Part shown: positions 7,908 to 17,583 of the stretch, piece after piece
Numbering within the stretch: position 1 is the stretch's first letter
Layout: each line of letters begins with the position of its first letter
NCBI RefSeq assembly: GCF_021129175.1
Contig: NZ_JAJOHV010000069.1
Location: 1 to 34,186, forward strand
DNA: 34,186 nt
Source: Chromobacterium piscinae
GTDB taxonomy: Bacteria > Pseudomonadota > Gammaproteobacteria > Burkholderiales > Chromobacteriaceae
Direction: 5' to 3'
The notes under the pieces: generated by a model
Told to the model about the DNA's origin: nothing
The model's input: the letters and a program-made list of their open reading frames with translations, nothing else
Database searches by the model: none
Translations under genes and position numbers: made by a program

Positions 7908-8267
7908 ATGCTGCAGAATTACTTCCCCATCCTGCTGTTCATCCTGGTCGGCCTTCTGGTCGGCGTATTGCCGCTGATGCTGGGCAAGCTGCTCGGCCCC
8001 AACCGGCCGGACCCGGAAAAGCTGTCGCCGTACGAGTGCGGCTTCAATGCCTTCGGCGACGCGCGAAAGCGCTTCGACGTGCGCTACTACCTGGTGGCCA
8101 TCCTGTTCATCCTGTTCGATCTGGAAGTGGCCTTCATGATCCCGTGGGCGGTGACGCTCAAGGATGAACTGGGCCTGTTCGGCCTGGGCGCGATGGCGGT
8201 GTTCCTGGCCATTCTGGTCATCGGCTTCGTCTACGAATGGAAAAAGGGCGCGCTGCAGTGGGATTGA
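7908..8267 (+). CDS. nuoA: NADH-quinone oxidoreductase subunit A
   Basis: At 119 aa this is full-length NuoA, a membrane subunit of respiratory complex I next to the quinone tunnel. Three transmembrane helices are visible (about 6-27, 62-84, 90-110). The conserved loop LSPYECGF with its cysteine and the segment [18 protein letters not shown] are intact, as is the [11 protein letters not shown] tail. Nothing suggests decay. Unusually, no nuoB follows: the next gene (radical SAM) is convergent, starts its own unit and overlaps the hairpin after nuoA. The gene is either an orphan paralogue of an operonic nuoA elsewhere or the result of operon splitting; this window cannot decide. Confidence 0.95.
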
Positions 8268-8307
8268 GCGCGCCCCAGGCTTGATCCGCCGGCTCAAGCC
8301 TGCGCGC
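8268..8307. terminator. Hairpin between convergent nuoA and the radical SAM gene
   Basis: GCGCG (8268-8272) and CAGGCTTGA (8276-8284) pair with TCAAGCCTG (8294-8302) and CGCGC (8303-8307). The right arm includes the stop codon and last codons of the radical SAM gene. There is no T-run, so it may act as a weak bidirectional terminator or as a 3'-end stabiliser. Confidence 0.5.
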
Positions 8308-9376
8308 AGGCCCGCCGTCTCTCGGCCATCCCTCGCGATTCGCCGGGCACGTGATGCTCATCCAGCCAGGCGGCCTGCAGCACTTCGGCGATCATTTCCT
8401 CATAGTGCTCGCGCACCAGCCGGCGCACCGCCTCGTCGCGGTAGATCCGGGCGCAGGCCTGGCAATGGTGGGCGTACATGCCTTCCCAGCGGATGCTTGG
8501 GTCGCGCGCGGCGGCCCAGGCCAGCACCCGCTCCGGTCCCAGGTAATGCAGCCACAGCTTGAGGAAATCCCCTTCCGCCGCCTCCACCGCGCGTGACAGG
8601 AAGTCCGGCTGATCGACGGTGGCCACGCTGAGCTCCGGTATCTGCCGCATGCCGATGCCGCAGCAGGCGCCCACGCGGCCGTCGGCCTGGATGGTGTAGG
8701 TCTGCAGCACATTGGAGCAGACGCGGAAAGACTTGAGATTGTGGTTGTCGGCGGCCACGCCGGGCGGGTAGTCCTCCACCAGGCCCGGGTCCAGCGGCAT
8801 CCACGGGCTTTCGACGATCTCGATCAGCGCCCTGTCCTCCGCCGCCAGCGCGGCGATGCGCGGATGTCCGGTGACCGAGGCGGCGGTCACCGCGCGCGCG
8901 GCGCGCAATTCCACCATCACCCAGGCCTTAAGCCGGCGCCGCACCGCCGCCAGGCAGCCTTCCACCACCCGCTCCAGCGGCACGAAGCGCGCGTGCTCGT
9001 CGCCAGTGCTGTAATTGATCTCGGTCAGCCCGGCTTCCAGCAGCGCGTCCAGCCGGCGATCGGCGCTGTTGGCGCTGATCGCCCAGTGAGCATTGCTGAC
9101 CAGCCGCACCGGAAAGCCCAGCCCGCTGGCGTGGCGGATCGCGGTCAGCAGATCGCGCCAGCGCAGCGTGGCCTCGCCGCCGGTGAACACCACGTTGTAG
9201 AAGCCCAGCGCCTTGGCCTGGTCTATCGCCGACAGCATCGCCTGCAGCGTCAGGTTCTCTCGCGCCTTGGGATGGCTCATCGACGCGCAGTGCTCGCAAG
9301 CGGCTGGGCAGGCGTAAGTGGGCATGATGGACAAGGTCTTAGGCCCGCGAAACAGGCCGGGAACAGGCAGGTTCAT
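8294..9376 (-). CDS. Radical SAM protein with C-terminal cysteine cluster, putative peptide maturase (360 aa)
   Basis: Cys23-x3-Cys27-x2-Cys30 (in YACPAACEHCAS) is the canonical radical SAM [4Fe-4S] motif. NVVFTGGEAT (61-70) matches the GGE SAM-binding motif, and STGDEHARFVPLERV (about 123-137) follows. The C-terminal part has Cys220, Cys238-Cys239 (GACCGIG) and Cys305-x2-Cys308 (HHCQACARI), a SPASM/Twitch-like arrangement that could bind auxiliary clusters. Such enzymes commonly modify ribosomal peptides. The start is at 9376 with GGGAG eight bases upstream. It lies 49 bp downstream of the Phe/Gly-rich gene at 9426-10070 on the same strand, so that product is the natural candidate substrate. 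An enzyme acting on a small molecule, or an anaerobic sulfatase-type maturase, cannot be excluded. I do not recognise a named subfamily. Confidence 0.85.
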   Translation of the reverse strand: MNLPVPGLFRGPKTLSIMPTYACPAACEHCASMSHPKARENLTLQAMLSAIDQAKALGFYNVVFTGGEATLRWRDLLTAIRHASGLGFPVRLVSNAHWAISANSADRRLDALLEAGLTEINYSTGDEHARFVPLERVVEGCLAAVRRRLKAWVMVELRAARAVTAASVTGHPRIAALAAEDRALIEIVESPWMPLDPGLVEDYPPGVAADNHNLKSFRVCSNVLQTYTIQADGRVGACCGIGMRQIPELSVATVDQPDFLSRAVEAAEGDFLKLWLHYLGPERVLAWAAARDPSIRWEGMYAHHCQACARIYRDEAVRRLVREHYEEMIAEVLQAAWLDEHHVPGESRGMAERRRACAQA

Positions 9377-9425
9377 TCGCGATCTCCCGCCGCGGCGCGC
9401 GGAGAACGCGCGCAGCGGCCCGAGT

Positions 9426-10070
9426 TCAGACCTTGAGCTGGCCGGCGGCCTGCATCTGCTTGGCCTGGTCCACCAGCTGGCCGATCACCGTGCGCAGCAG
9501 CGCCGCGTCGGCCACGCCGCCGAAACCGAAGGGCAAGCCGGAAGCGAAACCATTGAAGTTCTGGCTGGAACGCAAGGTTTGGTCCGAGGTGGACGGCGTC
9601 GCCGGCGGCGTGGCCACGCTCTTTTCCGGGCCGATCAGCAACTGCTCGGCGGAGTTGCCGAAACCAGGCAGACCGAAGCCGTCGCTGGCCAGCTTGAACA
9701 TCGCGCGGATCAGGTCGGCGTCGGCGTACTTCAGCACGGCGGCGGCGAAGTCCTGGCTGAACTGCTCTTCGCTGACCGGCTTGCCCCCGGGACTGGCGGG
9801 ATAGTCGTCCATCCACTGGCGGAAGCCGTCGTTGGCCAGCATGGAAAACAGCAGACGGTTGACGTCGGACACCTGCTGGGCAGGCAACTGGCGCTGGCTG
9901 ACCTTGGCCGTCAGCACGCCGACAGGGTTGTGGATGAATTCGGCGCGCGCCGCCGGATCCTTGTCCAACTGGGCGAACAGCGTCTGGGCATTGTTGCGCA
10001 GCTGCGCGGCCGGCAAAACCAGCGGCGCGCTCCGCGCGGACTTGATCGGTTGGATGGTGGTGGTCTTCAT
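9426..10070 (-). CDS. Cys-free Phe/Gly-rich protein with leader-like N-terminus, candidate RiPP precursor (214 aa)
   Basis: The start at 10070 is supported by GGGAGG five bases upstream; an upstream extension to 10151 adds only Arg-rich residues with no ribosome site. Residues 32-58 (LFAQLDKDPAARAEFIHNP followed by VGVLTAKV) resemble the leader motif 'L..DP..R..F..NP..VL' of nitrile-hydratase-like and Nif11-like RiPP leaders. Residues 60-125 look helical. Two Phe/Gly patches follow, GFGLPGFGN (131-139) and NFNGFASGLPFGFGG (171-185), separated by a Ser/Thr/Pro linker (150-168). There are no cysteines, no signal peptide and no membrane segment. The adjacent radical SAM gene suggests post-translational modification, for example at aromatic residues. 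It is long for a precursor, so it could instead be a structural or partner protein. No homologue is recognised. Confidence 0.6.
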   Translation of the reverse strand: MKTTTIQPIKSARSAPLVLPAAQLRNNAQTLFAQLDKDPAARAEFIHNPVGVLTAKVSQRQLPAQQVSDVNRLLFSMLANDGFRQWMDDYPASPGGKPVSEEQFSQDFAAAVLKYADADLIRAMFKLASDGFGLPGFGNSAEQLLIGPEKSVATPPATPSTSDQTLRSSQNFNGFASGLPFGFGGVADAALLRTVIGQLVDQAKQMQAAGQLKV

Positions 10071-10195
10071 GATGCCTCCCGTTAGGGAACACGGAACTTC
10101 CGCGGCGGTGGCGTGAAAACGGCGGAGCCGCCATCCGCATCGCCGCGGCACATCGCGAGCCCAGAAACGGCCGCGCGGACATCCCCTTTGCGCAA

Positions 10196-10248
10196 TTCGT
10201 TCATGATAGAACCATCAATATCAGGACAAACTGTTCTTTATGACAGTT
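10196..10248 (-). promoter_or_regulatory. Putative LuxR-type (lux box) promoter of the radical SAM unit
   Basis: AACTGT-N8-ACAGTT at 10229-10248 has the NNCTG-N10-CAGNN layout of a lux box. On the minus strand TATCAT (10208-10203) is a good -10 hexamer. With a start at 10196 the palindrome centre (10238.5) falls exactly at -42.5, the class II position at which LuxR-type activators overlap the -35 site; no good -35 hexamer is present. The predicted 5' leader is about 126 bases to the ATG at 10070. Chromobacterium uses the LuxR-type regulator CviR, so quorum control is plausible but inferred. Confidence 0.5.
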
Positions 10249-10806
10249 ACGCCACATCTTCGCCCTGCAACGGCTGGCATCGCTCTCCCCCCGGCGCGCT
10301 GCCGCGGCCAGAATGCGCCTGCCTCCCATGCCATTGGCCATGGCTGCTTAAACAGCAAGCACCGCGCGCAGAGCGCTTCGCCGCCACTTAGAGCAAAACC
10401 CGCATTAAGCTCTTGCGCCGACATAAAAAACCAAGTGGAACAAAAATGCCAAGCGGAATTCATTAAAAGCAATTCAGACCAATAAAAACCGCAAGAACGA
10501 AATTTAATAAAGAGCAATTACTTCAATTTAGGAAATTAAAATATATGCTCTACTTTAAAAGAGGCGCAATCATCAAGGCATAACCAGAACTCTCCCGGCG
10601 TACTTAAAACAATTCAAATATTCAGAAAAATTTACATGCGCAAAGTGTGATTTACCTGCGGCAGTAAAAAATCAGATTCGCAATAATATGGCTGGTAAAT
10701 AATTCAAGTTGCGCCCCATTATTTTTTCAATTAGCATCAACGCCCTTTACGGGGGACATCCTCGTAAAACCAGGCATTCCCGCCTTAATTTCCGTGAAAA
10801 AATAAA
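10249..10806. other. AT-rich intergenic region before the lipoprotein gene
   Basis: No gene is supported here; short frames lack ribosome sites. From about 10400 to 10740 the DNA is clearly AT-rich compared with both sides, suggesting a promoter and protein-binding region for the plus-strand gene at 10807 or a remnant of foreign DNA. Short inverted TTTACG/CGTAAA arms lie near 10746-10769, close to the next gene. I could not assign convincing -35/-10 hexamers. Confidence 0.5.
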
Positions 10807-11169
10807 ATGAAACACTTGCTGCTGCCCGCCGCCCTGTTGGCCCTCGGCCTGACCGGTTGCGCCTCGATTCTGAACGACCAAACCCAACAAGTTAACGTGT
10901 CCAGCTCCACCGGCACTGAAATCAAGGGCACCATCGATGGCCAAGCATTCAAAGCGCCCGGCATCGTCGACCTGAAGCGTGAAAACAAAAACAAGATCAT
11001 CATGACCGAAACCGAAGGTTGCGCTCAGCAAACCGTCGCGGAAAAAACGGTCGATCCGAAATTCTTCATCAACATCCTGAGCGGCGGCGCGTTTGGCTCC
11101 ACCACCGACTACTCCACCGAAAAAATGTGGAAGTACTCGGACAACATCGTTGTTTCTTGCCGGAAATAA
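10807..11169 (+). CDS. Small lipoprotein (120 aa)
   Basis: MKHLLLPAALLALGLTGCAS is a lipoprotein signal with the lipobox LTGC; Cys18 would be lipidated. The mature part has the pattern CASILNDQTQQVNVSSSTG found in a broad group of small proteobacterial lipoproteins. Two later cysteines (EGCAQQ and VVSCRK) may form a disulfide, and the GGAFGS loop is Gly-rich. Ser19 after the lipid-bearing Cys is a neutral +2-type residue, compatible with outer-membrane sorting. The ribosome site is weak. The stop codon overlaps the ATG of the DUF4105-type gene (TAATG), so the two are probably coupled and may act together in the envelope. Confidence 0.85.
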   Translation: MKHLLLPAALLALGLTGCASILNDQTQQVNVSSSTGTEIKGTIDGQAFKAPGIVDLKRENKNKIIMTETEGCAQQTVAEKTVDPKFFINILSGGAFGSTTDYSTEKMWKYSDNIVVSCRK

Positions 11170-14087: not shown

Positions 14088-15830
14088 ATGTCCCTGACCC
14101 GCCTGCTGTTCAGCTTCGTCTCCCGCCACTGGCGCTCCTACATCCTGGCCGCGCTGATGCTGGCCGCGGTGGCGGTGCTGACCGTGATGATCCCTCGCCA
14201 GGTGGGCCATATCGTCGACGCGCTGGTGGCGCGGCGGCTATCCGGCGACGCGCTGCTGATGGAGCTGGGCCGGCTGCTGGCGATGGGCCTGGCTATCTAC
14301 GCCCTGCGCGTGGGCTGGCGGCTGCAGCTGTTCACCGCCTCGTACAAACTGGGCGTGGAGCTGCGCGGCAAGCTGTACCGCAGCCTGGCCGGACAAGGCC
14401 CGGCCTTCTTCCAGCGCCAGCGCACCGGCGACCTGATGGCCCGCGCCACCAACGACATCGATTCGGTGGAGATGGCGGCGGGCGAAGCGATGCTGGCCGG
14501 TTTCGACGGCCTGTTGACCCTGGCGCTGGTGCTGGCGATGATGACGCTGGGCGTGGACTGGCGGCTGGCGTTGGCGGCGCTGCTGCCCTTTCCCTTCATG
14601 GCCTGGGCCTTCGCCCGCATTTCCGACCACATCCACCGCGAATGGGGCGAAGCCCTCTCCCGTTTCGGCCAGCTCAACGACCACGTGCAGGAAACCCTGT
14701 CCGGCGTGCGCACGCTGCGCGCGCTGGGGCTGGAGGCGCGCAACGACGCCGAGCTGTCCCGGCTGGCGGCCGCGGCATCGGACAGCAGCTTCGAAGCCCA
14801 GCGCTGGGAGGCCGCGTTCGAGCCCGCCGTCGGCGTCGCCCTGGTCACCGCCACCGCCATCGCGCTGGCGCTGGGCGGCTACCTGGTCTGGCACGGCCAA
14901 CTGACCATAGGCGCGCTCACCAGCTTCAGCATGTACCTGGTGCAGTTGATCTGGCCGATGTTCGCCGCCGGCTGGGTGCTGTCGCTGCTGCAGCGCGGCG
15001 CCGCCGCCTGGCGCCGGCTGCAGCCGGTGCTGGACGCCGAGCCCGACGTCGCCGACGACGGCGGCCGGACCGAGCTCGCGCCCGGCGCGCTGGTTTTCGA
15101 CGACCTCACCTTCCACTATTCGACAGACGCCGCCGCGGCGCTGCGCCAGGTGTCGGTCCAACTGCCGCCCGGCCAGACCCTGGGCGTGGTCGGCCCCACC
15201 GGCAGCGGCAAATCCACGCTGCTGAAGCTGCTGATGCGGCAATACCCGCTGCAACAAGGCGCGATACGCTGGAGCGGCGCCGACATCGACGACTACTCGC
15301 TGCACACCCTGCGCGGCGCGATCAGTTGGGTGCCGCAGGAAGCCTTCCTGTTCTCCGCCAGCGTGGCGGAGAACATCGCGCTGGCGCGGCCGGACGCCGG
15401 CCCGCAAGAGATCGAGCGGGTGGCGAGGCTGGCGGCGGTGCACGACGACATCCTCAGGCTGCCGCAGGGCTACGCGACGCCGGTGGGCGAAAAAGGCGTG
15501 GCGCTGTCCGGCGGCCAGCGCCAGCGGCTGGCCATCGCCCGCGCGCTGCTGGCCGACGCGCCGCTGCTGCTGCTGGACGACGCGCTGTCGGCGGTGGACA
15601 CCGATACCGAGAGCCGCATCCTCGGCCATCTTCGCGAGGCGCGGCGCGGCCGCAGCGTCATCATCGTCAGCCACCGGCTGTCGGCGGTGGCCGACGCCGA
15701 CCACATCGTCGCGCTGAACCACGGCCGCATCGCGGAACAAGGCAACCACGACGAGCTGCTGCGGCAAAACGGCTGGTACGCCAGCCAATGGCGCTATCAA
15801 CAACTGGAGGCCAGCCTCGATGAAATCTGA
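14088..15830 (+). CDS. mdlA: ABC exporter half-transporter, MdlA type
   Basis: At 580 aa this is a fused transmembrane plus ATP-binding half-transporter. Six membrane helices fill about 1-310. The nucleotide-binding domain has Walker A GPTGSGKST (about 368), Q-loop PQEAFLF, signature LSGGQ (473-477), Walker B ending LLLLDDALSAVD and His-switch SHRLS. The residue after the Walker B aspartate is Asp498 rather than the catalytic Glu, as in E. coli MdlA, so this half has a degenerate ATPase site. It overlaps mdlB by 11 bp, which indicates an obligate heterodimer. The substrate is unknown; Mdl/Smd homologues are linked to drug or peptide export. Confidence 0.88.
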   Translation: MSLTRLLFSFVSRHWRSYILAALMLAAVAVLTVMIPRQVGHIVDALVARRLSGDALLMELGRLLAMGLAIYALRVGWRLQLFTASYKLGVELRGKLYRSLAGQGPAFFQRQRTGDLMARATNDIDSVEMAAGEAMLAGFDGLLTLALVLAMMTLGVDWRLALAALLPFPFMAWAFARISDHIHREWGEALSRFGQLNDHVQETLSGVRTLRALGLEARNDAELSRLAAAASDSSFEAQRWEAAFEPAVGVALVTATAIALALGGYLVWHGQLTIGALTSFSMYLVQLIWPMFAAGWVLSLLQRGAAAWRRLQPVLDAEPDVADDGGRTELAPGALVFDDLTFHYSTDAAAALRQVSVQLPPGQTLGVVGPTGSGKSTLLKLLMRQYPLQQGAIRWSGADIDDYSLHTLRGAISWVPQEAFLFSASVAENIALARPDAGPQEIERVARLAAVHDDILRLPQGYATPVGEKGVALSGGQRQRLAIARALLADAPLLLLDDALSAVDTDTESRILGHLREARRGRSVIIVSHRLSAVADADHIVALNHGRIAEQGNHDELLRQNGWYASQWRYQQLEASLDEI

Positions 15831-17583
15831 CGCCAACCGCCTGCAAACCCGTGAAGCGGTCTCCCTGCTCATCGACGCCGCCCGTCCGGACCGCCGCCAT
15901 CTGTGGCGGGGCGGATTCTGGCTGATGATCGCCGCCTTGCTCGAAGCCGGCGCGCCGCTGCTGGGCAAGGTATTCATAGACAACTACCTGCTGCCGCACC
16001 GGCTGGACTGGAGCGCCATCGCCGGTCTGCTGGCCGGCAGCCTGCTGCTGGGCCTGGCCGCCGCCGCGCTGCGCTACCGCCAGCTGGTGCGGCTGGCCGG
16101 CGTGGCGATGCGCGCGGTGCTGCGGCTGCGCGAGCGGGTGTACGGCCACGTGATGCGGCTGCCGATGGCCTTCTTCGACAAGGCGATCACTGGCCAGCTG
16201 GTCAGCCGCGTCACCAACGACACCGAATCCGTCAAAGCGCTGTACGTGCAGGCGCTGTTCGTCATCCTCAACAGCAGCATCGTGGTGCTAGGCGCGCTGG
16301 CAGCGATGGCCTGGCTGGACTGGCGGCTGATGCTGGTTTCCCTGCTGCTGTTCCCGGCCACCCTCGCCATCGTGTGGCTGTACCAGCGGCTGAGCGCGCC
16401 ATCGGTGGCCCGCGCCCGCGCGCTGCGCAGCGACATCAACGCCCAGATGGCGGAATCCATCTCCGGCATCTCGGTATTGCAGGCCAGCAACGCCGAGGGC
16501 CGCTTCATCGGCCGCTTCGACGACACCAACCAGCGCTACTACCACGCGCGGCTGCGCGAGCTGCGCGCCAACGCCTGGCTGCTGCGCCCGGCGCTGGACC
16601 TGCTCAACGTGCTGCTGTTGGTCGCGGTGATCCACAGCTACGGCCAGCGCCCGCTGGACGGGCTGGAGATCGGCGTGCTGTACGCCTTCGTCGGCTACAT
16701 CGGCCGGGTGGTAGAGCCGCTGATCCAGATCACGCTGCAATTCGGCCAGCTGCAGCAGGCGGTGGTGGCCGCCAGCCGCGTCAGCCAGCTGCTGGCCGAG
16801 CCGGCCGCGCCGCAAGCCTCGGAAGCCGGCCATATCGCCGACGGCGCGGTCAGCTTCCGCGGCCTGCGCTTCGGCTACCAGGCCGAGCATCCGGTGCTGC
16901 ACGATCTGAGCCTGGATATTCCGGCCGGCAGCTTCATCGGCATCGTCGGCCACACCGGCAGCGGCAAATCCACGCTGCTGTCGCTGCTGCTGCGCTTCTA
17001 CCGGCCGCAGCAAGGCGAGATCCTAGTCGACGGCCAGCCTCTCTACGACATCGGCGACGCCGCCTTCCGCGCCGGCGTCGGCCTGGTGCCGCAAGACCCG
17101 TTCCTGCTGGCCGCCAGCGCGCGCGAAAACATCGACATGGGCCGCGGCCTGCCGCAAGGCGAGATAGAGGCCGCCGCCCGCGCCGCCGGCGTGCACGAGC
17201 TGATCCTGTCGCTGGAAAACGGCTACGACAGCGATATGGGCGAGAGCGGTGCGCGGCTGTCCAGCGGCCAGAAGCAGCTGATCGCCATCGCCCGCGCGCT
17301 GGCGGGCAAGCCGCGCATCCTGCTGCTGGACGAGGCCACCTCGCGCATCGACAGCGAAACAGAGCAGCTGGTGCAGCAGGCGCTGGCGCGGCTGGCCGGC
17401 AAGATCACGCTGATCTCCATCGCCCACCGCCTGTCCACCATCCGCGACGCCGACGCCATCGTCGTGCTCAACCACGGCCGCATCGCCGAATCCGGCGACC
17501 ATGACGCGCTGATGCGGCACGGCGGCATCTACCACAAGCTCTACCTGCTGCAGCAGCTGCAGCCGGAGGAAGAGGACGCGTGA
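15820..17583 (+). CDS. mdlB: ABC exporter half-transporter, MdlB type
   Basis: The 587-aa partner of the preceding gene has six membrane helices (about 20-310) and a nucleotide-binding domain with Walker A GHTGSGKST (377-385), Q-loop PQDPFLL, a degenerate signature LSSGQ (480-484), Walker B ILLLDEATSRID with catalytic Glu505, and His-switch AHRLS. A canonical signature in MdlA facing the catalytic Glu here, and a weak signature here facing the Asp in MdlA, leave one consensus and one degenerate ATP site. This is the asymmetric arrangement of heterodimeric exporters. Its start lies inside the end of mdlA, and its stop overlaps the GTG of the next gene. Confidence 0.88.
   Translation: MKSDANRLQTREAVSLLIDAARPDRRHLWRGGFWLMIAALLEAGAPLLGKVFIDNYLLPHRLDWSAIAGLLAGSLLLGLAAAALRYRQLVRLAGVAMRAVLRLRERVYGHVMRLPMAFFDKAITGQLVSRVTNDTESVKALYVQALFVILNSSIVVLGALAAMAWLDWRLMLVSLLLFPATLAIVWLYQRLSAPSVARARALRSDINAQMAESISGISVLQASNAEGRFIGRFDDTNQRYYHARLRELRANAWLLRPALDLLNVLLLVAVIHSYGQRPLDGLEIGVLYAFVGYIGRVVEPLIQITLQFGQLQQAVVAASRVSQLLAEPAAPQASEAGHIADGAVSFRGLRFGYQAEHPVLHDLSLDIPAGSFIGIVGHTGSGKSTLLSLLLRFYRPQQGEILVDGQPLYDIGDAAFRAGVGLVPQDPFLLAASARENIDMGRGLPQGEIEAAARAAGVHELILSLENGYDSDMGESGARLSSGQKQLIAIARALAGKPRILLLDEATSRIDSETEQLVQQALARLAGKITLISIAHRLSTIRDADAIVVLNHGRIAESGDHDALMRHGGIYHKLYLLQQLQPEEEDA

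Follow-up and report, generated by a model that had tools for sequence, protein, structure and literature searches.

The window analyzed here, a 34,186-nucleotide stretch of DNA that is contig C69 of genome G000 (Chromobacterium, 5.0 Mb), carries a pair of genes whose products we read as the precursor of a ribosomally synthesized and post-translationally modified peptide (RiPP) and a radical S-adenosylmethionine (SAM) enzyme resembling the epipeptide epimerase EpeE, also called YydG. An earlier note, written from the DNA letters, had described this pair, and its description held: a 214-aa protein free of cysteine (9426–10070, starting with the ATG at 10070) is followed after a gap of 49 bp, on the same strand, by a 360-aa radical SAM protein (8294–9376); these and all other coordinates of the pair are on the minus strand. 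The enzyme is 99% identical to a protein of C. vaccinii MWU205 and 94–99% identical to its counterparts in two congeners, and the precursor is 87–96% identical to its orthologues in three (genomes G027, G018 and G021). Ratios of nonsynonymous to synonymous substitution (dN/dS) were 0.03 (G000/G027) and 0.09 (G000/G021) for the enzyme and 0.09–0.19 across six species pairs for the precursor. Judged from this identity and these ratios, both open reading frames (ORFs) look like genuine genes.

The enzyme carries the radical SAM core (PF04055, 39.1 bits against a cut-off of 29.5), and its best NCBIfam match was the YydG epimerase model TIGR04078, at 49.2 bits over residues 13–137 only. Since the equivalog cut-off of this model is 300 bits, we treat the enzyme as an EpeE-like homologue and do not file it as YydG. 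Searched alone against the PDB, it matched EpeE over residues 12–136 (E=1.4e-5). A family profile (A3) of nine relatives, none of them YydG, extended this match to residues 26–324 of the 344-residue EpeE chain, covering profile positions 11–316 (E=6.2e-25); a profile that included a Macrococcus YydG reached 2e-72, partly by construction. The AlphaFold2 (AF2) model of the enzyme, made with eight sequences, had a predicted local distance difference test score (pLDDT) of 84.7, and its Foldseek ranks 1–9 were all EpeE chains, with template modelling (TM) scores of 0.70–0.72 by query and 0.77–0.80 by target (0.72/0.80 for 8ai6_B); non-EpeE entries among the best 50 rows did not exceed 0.52 by query. 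The earlier assignment to the SPASM/Twitch enzymes was therefore dropped, the best structural matches being EpeE and those to other radical SAM enzymes much weaker. A viperin-like defence role (PADLOC pVip, E=4e-8, residues 21–105 only) was also dropped, as the match reflects the shared radical SAM core.

All eight enzyme cysteines that had been pointed out before are indeed present, and none of them varies in any of the 14 aligned rows, Macrococcus YydG among them. C23, C27 and C30 form the CxxxCxxC radical SAM cluster motif (9287–9310), C220 (8717–8719) is the equivalent of EpeE C206 in the alignment, and C305xxC308 (8453–8464) is a C-terminal pair; we infer that C220, C305 and C308 serve as auxiliary-cluster ligands, these cysteines and the full-length EpeE-type fold being present by sequence and model only. 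The remaining two form a CC motif, C238–C239 (8660–8665). Structure 8ai3, described as C223A, shows Ala at the second Cys of this motif, and EpeE Cys223 thus corresponds to C239. According to the review PMC8326336, Cys223 is the residue proposed to return the hydrogen atom, EpeE carries two [4Fe-4S] clusters, and proteusin epimerases have one such cluster together with a RiPP recognition element (RRE) and no significant homology to EpeE. The retention of the putative hydrogen donor suggests that epimerization is favoured over cross-linking.

The translated precursor contains both elements noted earlier, a leader-like N-terminal pattern and two Phe/Gly patches. The leader motif spans residues 32–58 (9897–9977) with the pattern L35..DP39..R42..F45..NP49..VL53, and is followed by a second leader helix at residues 63–90 (NRLLF..L.N; 9801–9884), seen in a low-confidence AF2 model. 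Leader similarity was assessed pairwise for the precursors of Streptomyces canus, Thermus and genome G860, and BLASTP matched the first two over residues 17–124 (E=3e-10) and 6–80 (E=2e-7), respectively. Both matches enclose the leader motif and take in the second helix, that of Thermus as far as residue 80. Thus the claim that neither family is recognizable did not stand: the enzyme is related to EpeE/YydG and the precursor leader to those of S. canus and Thermus. The NHLP-related model TIGR04509 scored the precursor at 13.6 bits (E=0.052), below its curated 34 bits, as were the scores of S. canus (18.8) and Rhizobium (21.3); in one scan of precursors or neighbours from ten relatives it matched only S. 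canus.

Downstream of the leader, residues 128–186 (9513–9689) form the inferred core, which holds the patches G131–N139 (GFGLPGFGN) and N171–G185 (NFNGFASGLPFGFGG). The AF2 model of the precursor is poor (pLDDT 47.6), with helices between residues 21 and 146 and at 187–208, and falls below 50 at residues 126–192; poor as it is, it predicts no compact fold burying the Phe/Gly patches. The helix at 187–208 (9447–9512) resembles, by eye, the tails found behind the cores of the S. canus, G453 and Thermus precursors. The suggestion that this is a RiPP-type pair with the Phe/Gly region as its likely core is supported, as the region sits where the Ala/Val or Asn cores of relatives sit (by eye), lacks confident structure and shows the strongest constraint within the protein. 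Thioether chemistry of the sactipeptide or ranthipeptide kind was dropped, as the precursor has no Cys.

Gene neighbourhoods were inspected for 16 relatives of the enzyme, none of them from Chromobacterium or a YydG proper. They included nine of 36 matched plasmid records (S. canus, Thermus, Eleftheria, Lactococcus, Halocatena, Enterococcus mundtii, Rhizobium, Klebsiella and Collinsella) and Paenibacillus; a Macrococcus YydG was also opened, and the counts leave out the weak, partial matches L005–L020, L028 and L030–L032. A putative precursor, called by position, length and a core recognized by eye and not by a family model, was found in 12 of the 16 clusters and adjoined the enzyme in 11. It lies upstream in S. 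canus, Thermus, Lactococcus, E. mundtii, Halocatena, G453, G860, Klebsiella and Collinsella, downstream in Eleftheria and G225, and ~3 kb upstream in Rhizobium. Together with the three of four precursor-bearing Chromobacterium genomes that have the full enzyme, this bears out the expected co-conservation of the two genes. With the window's own, the 13 precursors divide into eight with Ala/Val-rich cores, four with Asn-rich alternating cores and one, that of the window, with a Phe/Gly core. Against 2000 shuffles of a 40-residue stretch, the N-x-N alternation was significant in Thermus (p 0) and Rhizobium (p 0.0005) and not in Klebsiella (0.06) or Collinsella (0.09). In the enzyme tree, Chromobacterium falls with G453 (92/92) and with S. 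canus (93/94), whose precursors both have Ala/Val cores; these supports are just under the tool's starred level, and the tool gives a long-branch warning elsewhere in the tree. On this grouping, the branch seems to be an Ala/Val-core one in which the Phe/Gly core arose by replacement. The tree does not support one common origin for the four Asn-core systems, as it calls for at least two changes. Co-conservation of enzyme and precursor, a related leader and a swapped core place the pair among radical SAM RiPP systems.

Within the window's taxonomic family, the precursor is found in 4 of 61 genomes, three of which have a full enzyme (G000, G027 and G021) and one, G018, a fragment; homologues of the 214-aa protein occurring widely without the enzyme were thus not seen. 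The full enzyme occurs in 3 of the 19 genomes of the genus, and the remaining 33 of 37 family genomes with enzyme matches have weak, partial ones only (E 1.8e-8 or worse). G018 is missing ~0.9 kb (window ~8518–9406), and with it most of the enzyme, of which residues 280–360 remain with one stop; its precursor is whole, 94% identical and unchanged in the core. The pair has been found in two settings, beside nuoA in the window, G018 and G027 and beside a bestrophin gene in G021. G028 gave no match to either the precursor or the enzyme, and in it ~180 bp separate nuoA from the bestrophin gene and the beginning of the first ABC-exporter-like ORF. Comparisons among G000, G027 and G018 revealed no nonsynonymous change in residues 128–186 in any of the three pairs (with 8, 9 and 5 synonymous changes), and 6–11 nonsynonymous changes in residues 1–127. 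Compared with the more distant G021, the core had six nonsynonymous and 19–23 synonymous changes per pair, still the lowest ratio of the three precursor parts.

The explanation that best fits these findings, to which we assign a probability of roughly 0.62, is a two-gene RiPP system in which an EpeE-type epimerase puts D-residues into precursor residues ~128–186. From what was computed (the gene pair, EpeE homology, shared cysteines, a family with swapped cores, and purifying selection) we infer epimerization, the residues it targets, and any cleavage, export and activity of the product. Precursor residues ~20–125 would be recognized or carried, and the enzyme's 5′-deoxyadenosyl radical would take the α-hydrogen from chosen core residues, to which C239 would give a hydrogen back from the other face, yielding D-residues. 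These would shape the core into a peptide or segment that resists proteases and is probably directed at membranes, with the C-terminal helix as the tail behind the modified core in a leader-core-tail precursor. As a kind, the system would belong among the radical SAM epimerase RiPPs and form no new category. Because epimerization leaves mass unchanged, the search for 2-Da losses proposed in the earlier note would miss the likely modification.

Several observations weigh against this explanation. The enzyme misses the YydG equivalog cut-off, and EpeE Asp210, a Glu in Macrococcus, aligns with Thr226 in the window enzyme, so that the acidic residue is not kept here. Since the core of the Chromobacterium precursor resembles neither the Ala/Val nor the Asn cores of relatives, its D-pattern cannot be guessed from them. 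BLASTP found no similarity between the window precursor and that of G860 (E=0.67), and four of the 16 relatives opened showed no precursor: G144 and G196, which are weak matches viewed for 1.5 kb on each side, Paenibacillus, which is fragmentary, and Roseateles, which is truncated. No protease, dedicated exporter or SdpI gene lies within the two-gene unit, and the window's genome had no SdpI match at E 0.001. Finally, unless G018 lost its enzyme only recently, its state speaks against a precursor that strictly needs the enzyme.

Both the divergent core and the substituted Asp210 would also fit an enzyme that makes another radical modification on the Phe/Gly core, such as an aromatic cross-link of the cyclophane type, a desaturation or a cyclopropane; other radical SAM RiPP systems are described in PMC9062424 as cross-linking aromatic-residue motifs and turning Val into cyclopropylglycine. 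We consider this unlikely, as the closest solved structure is an epimerase whose cysteines, the hydrogen donor included, are kept, and as the window enzyme's neighbours in the tree, the enzymes of S. canus and G453, go with Ala/Val-rich cores. The intact G018 precursor could instead indicate a stand-alone folded protein with a function of its own, which the enzyme modifies as a protein or merely neighbours, and such a protein would suit a core that is not hypervariable inside the genus and a locus near which no protease was seen. Yet the pair occurs together in three of the four precursor-bearing congeners and in two genomic settings, related pairs recur in distant phyla, and no confident fold was modelled at residues 126–192, which makes this reading decidedly improbable. 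Decay is the least credible account to us: a once full, bacteriocin-like locus such as that of G453 would have lost exporter and immunity and now make no product. The truncated enzymes of G018 and Roseateles YR242 and the few genus genomes with a full enzyme point that way, but the low dN/dS of the enzyme and the unchanged core in the three closest species pairs speak against it.

The proposed action of an EpeE-type epimerase on a long precursor may not be confined to Chromobacterium. An MTS-domain methyltransferase is next or next but one after the enzyme in four of four Asn-core clusters; neighbours in the other eight were scanned in part, with none scanned in S. canus or E. mundtii, and a class I methyltransferase is ~4 kb away in S. 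canus. SdpI (PF13630) was found in the Thermus, Klebsiella and G453 clusters, DUF1648 in Collinsella and G453, and DUF3784 in Halocatena. At least four of 12 relative clusters thus have SdpI or DUF1648 proteins, and PF13630 is present anywhere in only five of 14 control genomes. In G860 and the Rhizobium cluster, the pair has a TIGR03975 RiPP C-methyltransferase at its side, and the G453 cluster also contains HlyD and an ABC exporter that gave a C39-peptidase match. We suggest, at somewhat less than even odds, that long, proteusin-like precursors are the substrates of a wide family of EpeE-type epimerases in Chromobacterium, Streptomyces, Thermus, Rhizobium, Klebsiella, Collinsella, Lactococcus, Enterococcus and a haloarchaeon. 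Its Asn-core members would have independently assembled a polytheonamide-like biosynthesis (D-alternation, Asn methylation and C-methylation) leading to SdpI-guarded β-helical membrane peptides, with Chromobacterium as a minimal Phe/Gly offshoot.

Some of these clusters deserve description. That on Thermus aquaticus plasmid pTA14 (L034, 2599–6074) is compact, with an Asn-rich alternating precursor, an EpeE-like enzyme, SdpI and an MTS-domain methyltransferase; its precursor has, by eye, a Tat/lipobox-like N-terminus, and the cluster is a strong candidate for the maker of a polytheonamide-like thermophile peptide. On a plasmid of Rhizobium leguminosarum Vaf10 (L038, 2317–8162), whose record carries no annotation, an Ala-Asn repeat precursor, TIGR03975, an EpeE-like enzyme and an MTS-domain methyltransferase occur with a transposase-like ORF (by eye) in between. 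DUF5969 (PF19394) matches residues 160–239 of the Asn-core precursor of Collinsella aerofaciens (L046:4243–4968), and this domain may thus be a precursor tail. The haloarchaeal pair is on a Halocatena salina plasmid (L039:5437–7038) and has an Ala/Val-rich core near the C-terminus.

The precursor was found in none of 274 genomes of the class other than the window's own. The family profile, at 1e-25, matched 4 of 369 class genomes and 3 of 398 phylum genomes, both counts including the window's own genome and G225. Five of 299 genomes of the Roseateles family matched at 1e-10, with G453 at full length, Roseateles itself (G334) over residues 158–344 only and three in the radical SAM core only. 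Roseateles sp. YR242 (L026:7950–8618) retains only the C-terminal half of the enzyme, beside a truD-like ORF (by eye), and this remnant is an independent loss in another lineage. A phage or plasmid origin of the pair was rejected: viral contigs held no relative of the enzyme, phages giving two short radical SAM core matches only, and plasmids gave no precursor match.

The surroundings of the pair in the window were also inspected. It adjoins a nuoA gene (PF00507) at 7908–8267, a second nuoA-like copy of which, 74% identical, is on contig C9 of the same genome. Upstream of the precursor, ~0.7 kb (10071–10806) has 48% G+C, compared with 62% for the window. A scan of 8100–10900 told little, as it gave one terminator-like site (mean of shuffles, 3.2) and none resembling a promoter (mean of shuffles, 0.8). 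The earlier remark that there is no transporter is true of the two-gene unit itself; in its wider vicinity, two ORFs that resemble ABC exporters by eye lie ~4 kb away at 14088–17583.

If these interpretations are right, the substrates of epipeptide-type epimerases are not only short Firmicute peptides but also long precursors, in different phyla and in an archaeon, and polytheonamide-like patterns of D-residues can be reached by a second enzymatic route unrelated to the first. The Chromobacterium pair, at two genes and a 214-aa substrate the smallest version seen here, would be a convenient system for studying how such enzymes choose residues and whether D-residues can be placed inside a whole protein. 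Further members may be sought as an EpeE-like enzyme adjoining a putative precursor of about 170–370 aa. Among the matches listed, open-literature titles and abstract beginnings described no EpeE-like enzyme with such long precursors, which is weak evidence of absence as most subscription papers fall outside; TIGR04509, TIGR04078 and DUF5969 likewise had no open-literature match among those listed. The proposed EpeE-type family with long precursors is apparently undescribed.

Four known systems invite comparison. The SDP toxin/SdpI immunity system has a parallel in the SdpI or DUF1648 proteins of relative clusters and likewise has a long precursor with a hydrophobic core, but it differs in its SdpI, unmatched in the window's genome, and SDP is not known to be modified by a radical SAM enzyme. 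The NHLP-related family TIGR04509 has a weakly similar leader motif, with the window's score well short of its cut-off. The epipeptide system EpeX/EpeE (YydF/YydG) of Bacillus subtilis shares near-full-length enzyme homology, the modelled fold, the eight cysteines including the Cys223 equivalent, and a precursor gene directly upstream of the enzyme, as seen in the Macrococcus pair. EpeX is described as a short pre-pro-peptide from which a 17-aa toxin is made, and its operon has the peptidase EpeP and the transporter EpeAB; the Chromobacterium precursor, in contrast, is 214 aa long, with an extended leader and a C-terminal tail, the unit encodes neither protease nor exporter, and the TIGR04078 score of the enzyme is far below cut-off.

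The proteusins (PoyA/PoyD) resemble the pair in their long leader and multi-residue core. Nonetheless, the window enzyme is not a PoyD-type epimerase: it is EpeE-related with extra cysteines, set apart from PoyD by description, with no RRE-specific search made. The Chromobacterium pair also differs in having no Asn core and no adjoining methyltransferases, whereas some of its relatives share with proteusins an Asn-rich alternating core and a methyltransferase, and two share a RiPP C-methyltransferase, as in the poy cluster. For polytheonamide, the review PMC11285071 describes PoyE as methylating the side chains of Asn, one configuration more efficiently than the other, states that the β-helix requires the N-methyl groups, and identifies PoyB and PoyC as B12 radical SAM C-methyltransferases. 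By analogy, the Asn-core clusters would parallel polytheonamide biosynthesis.

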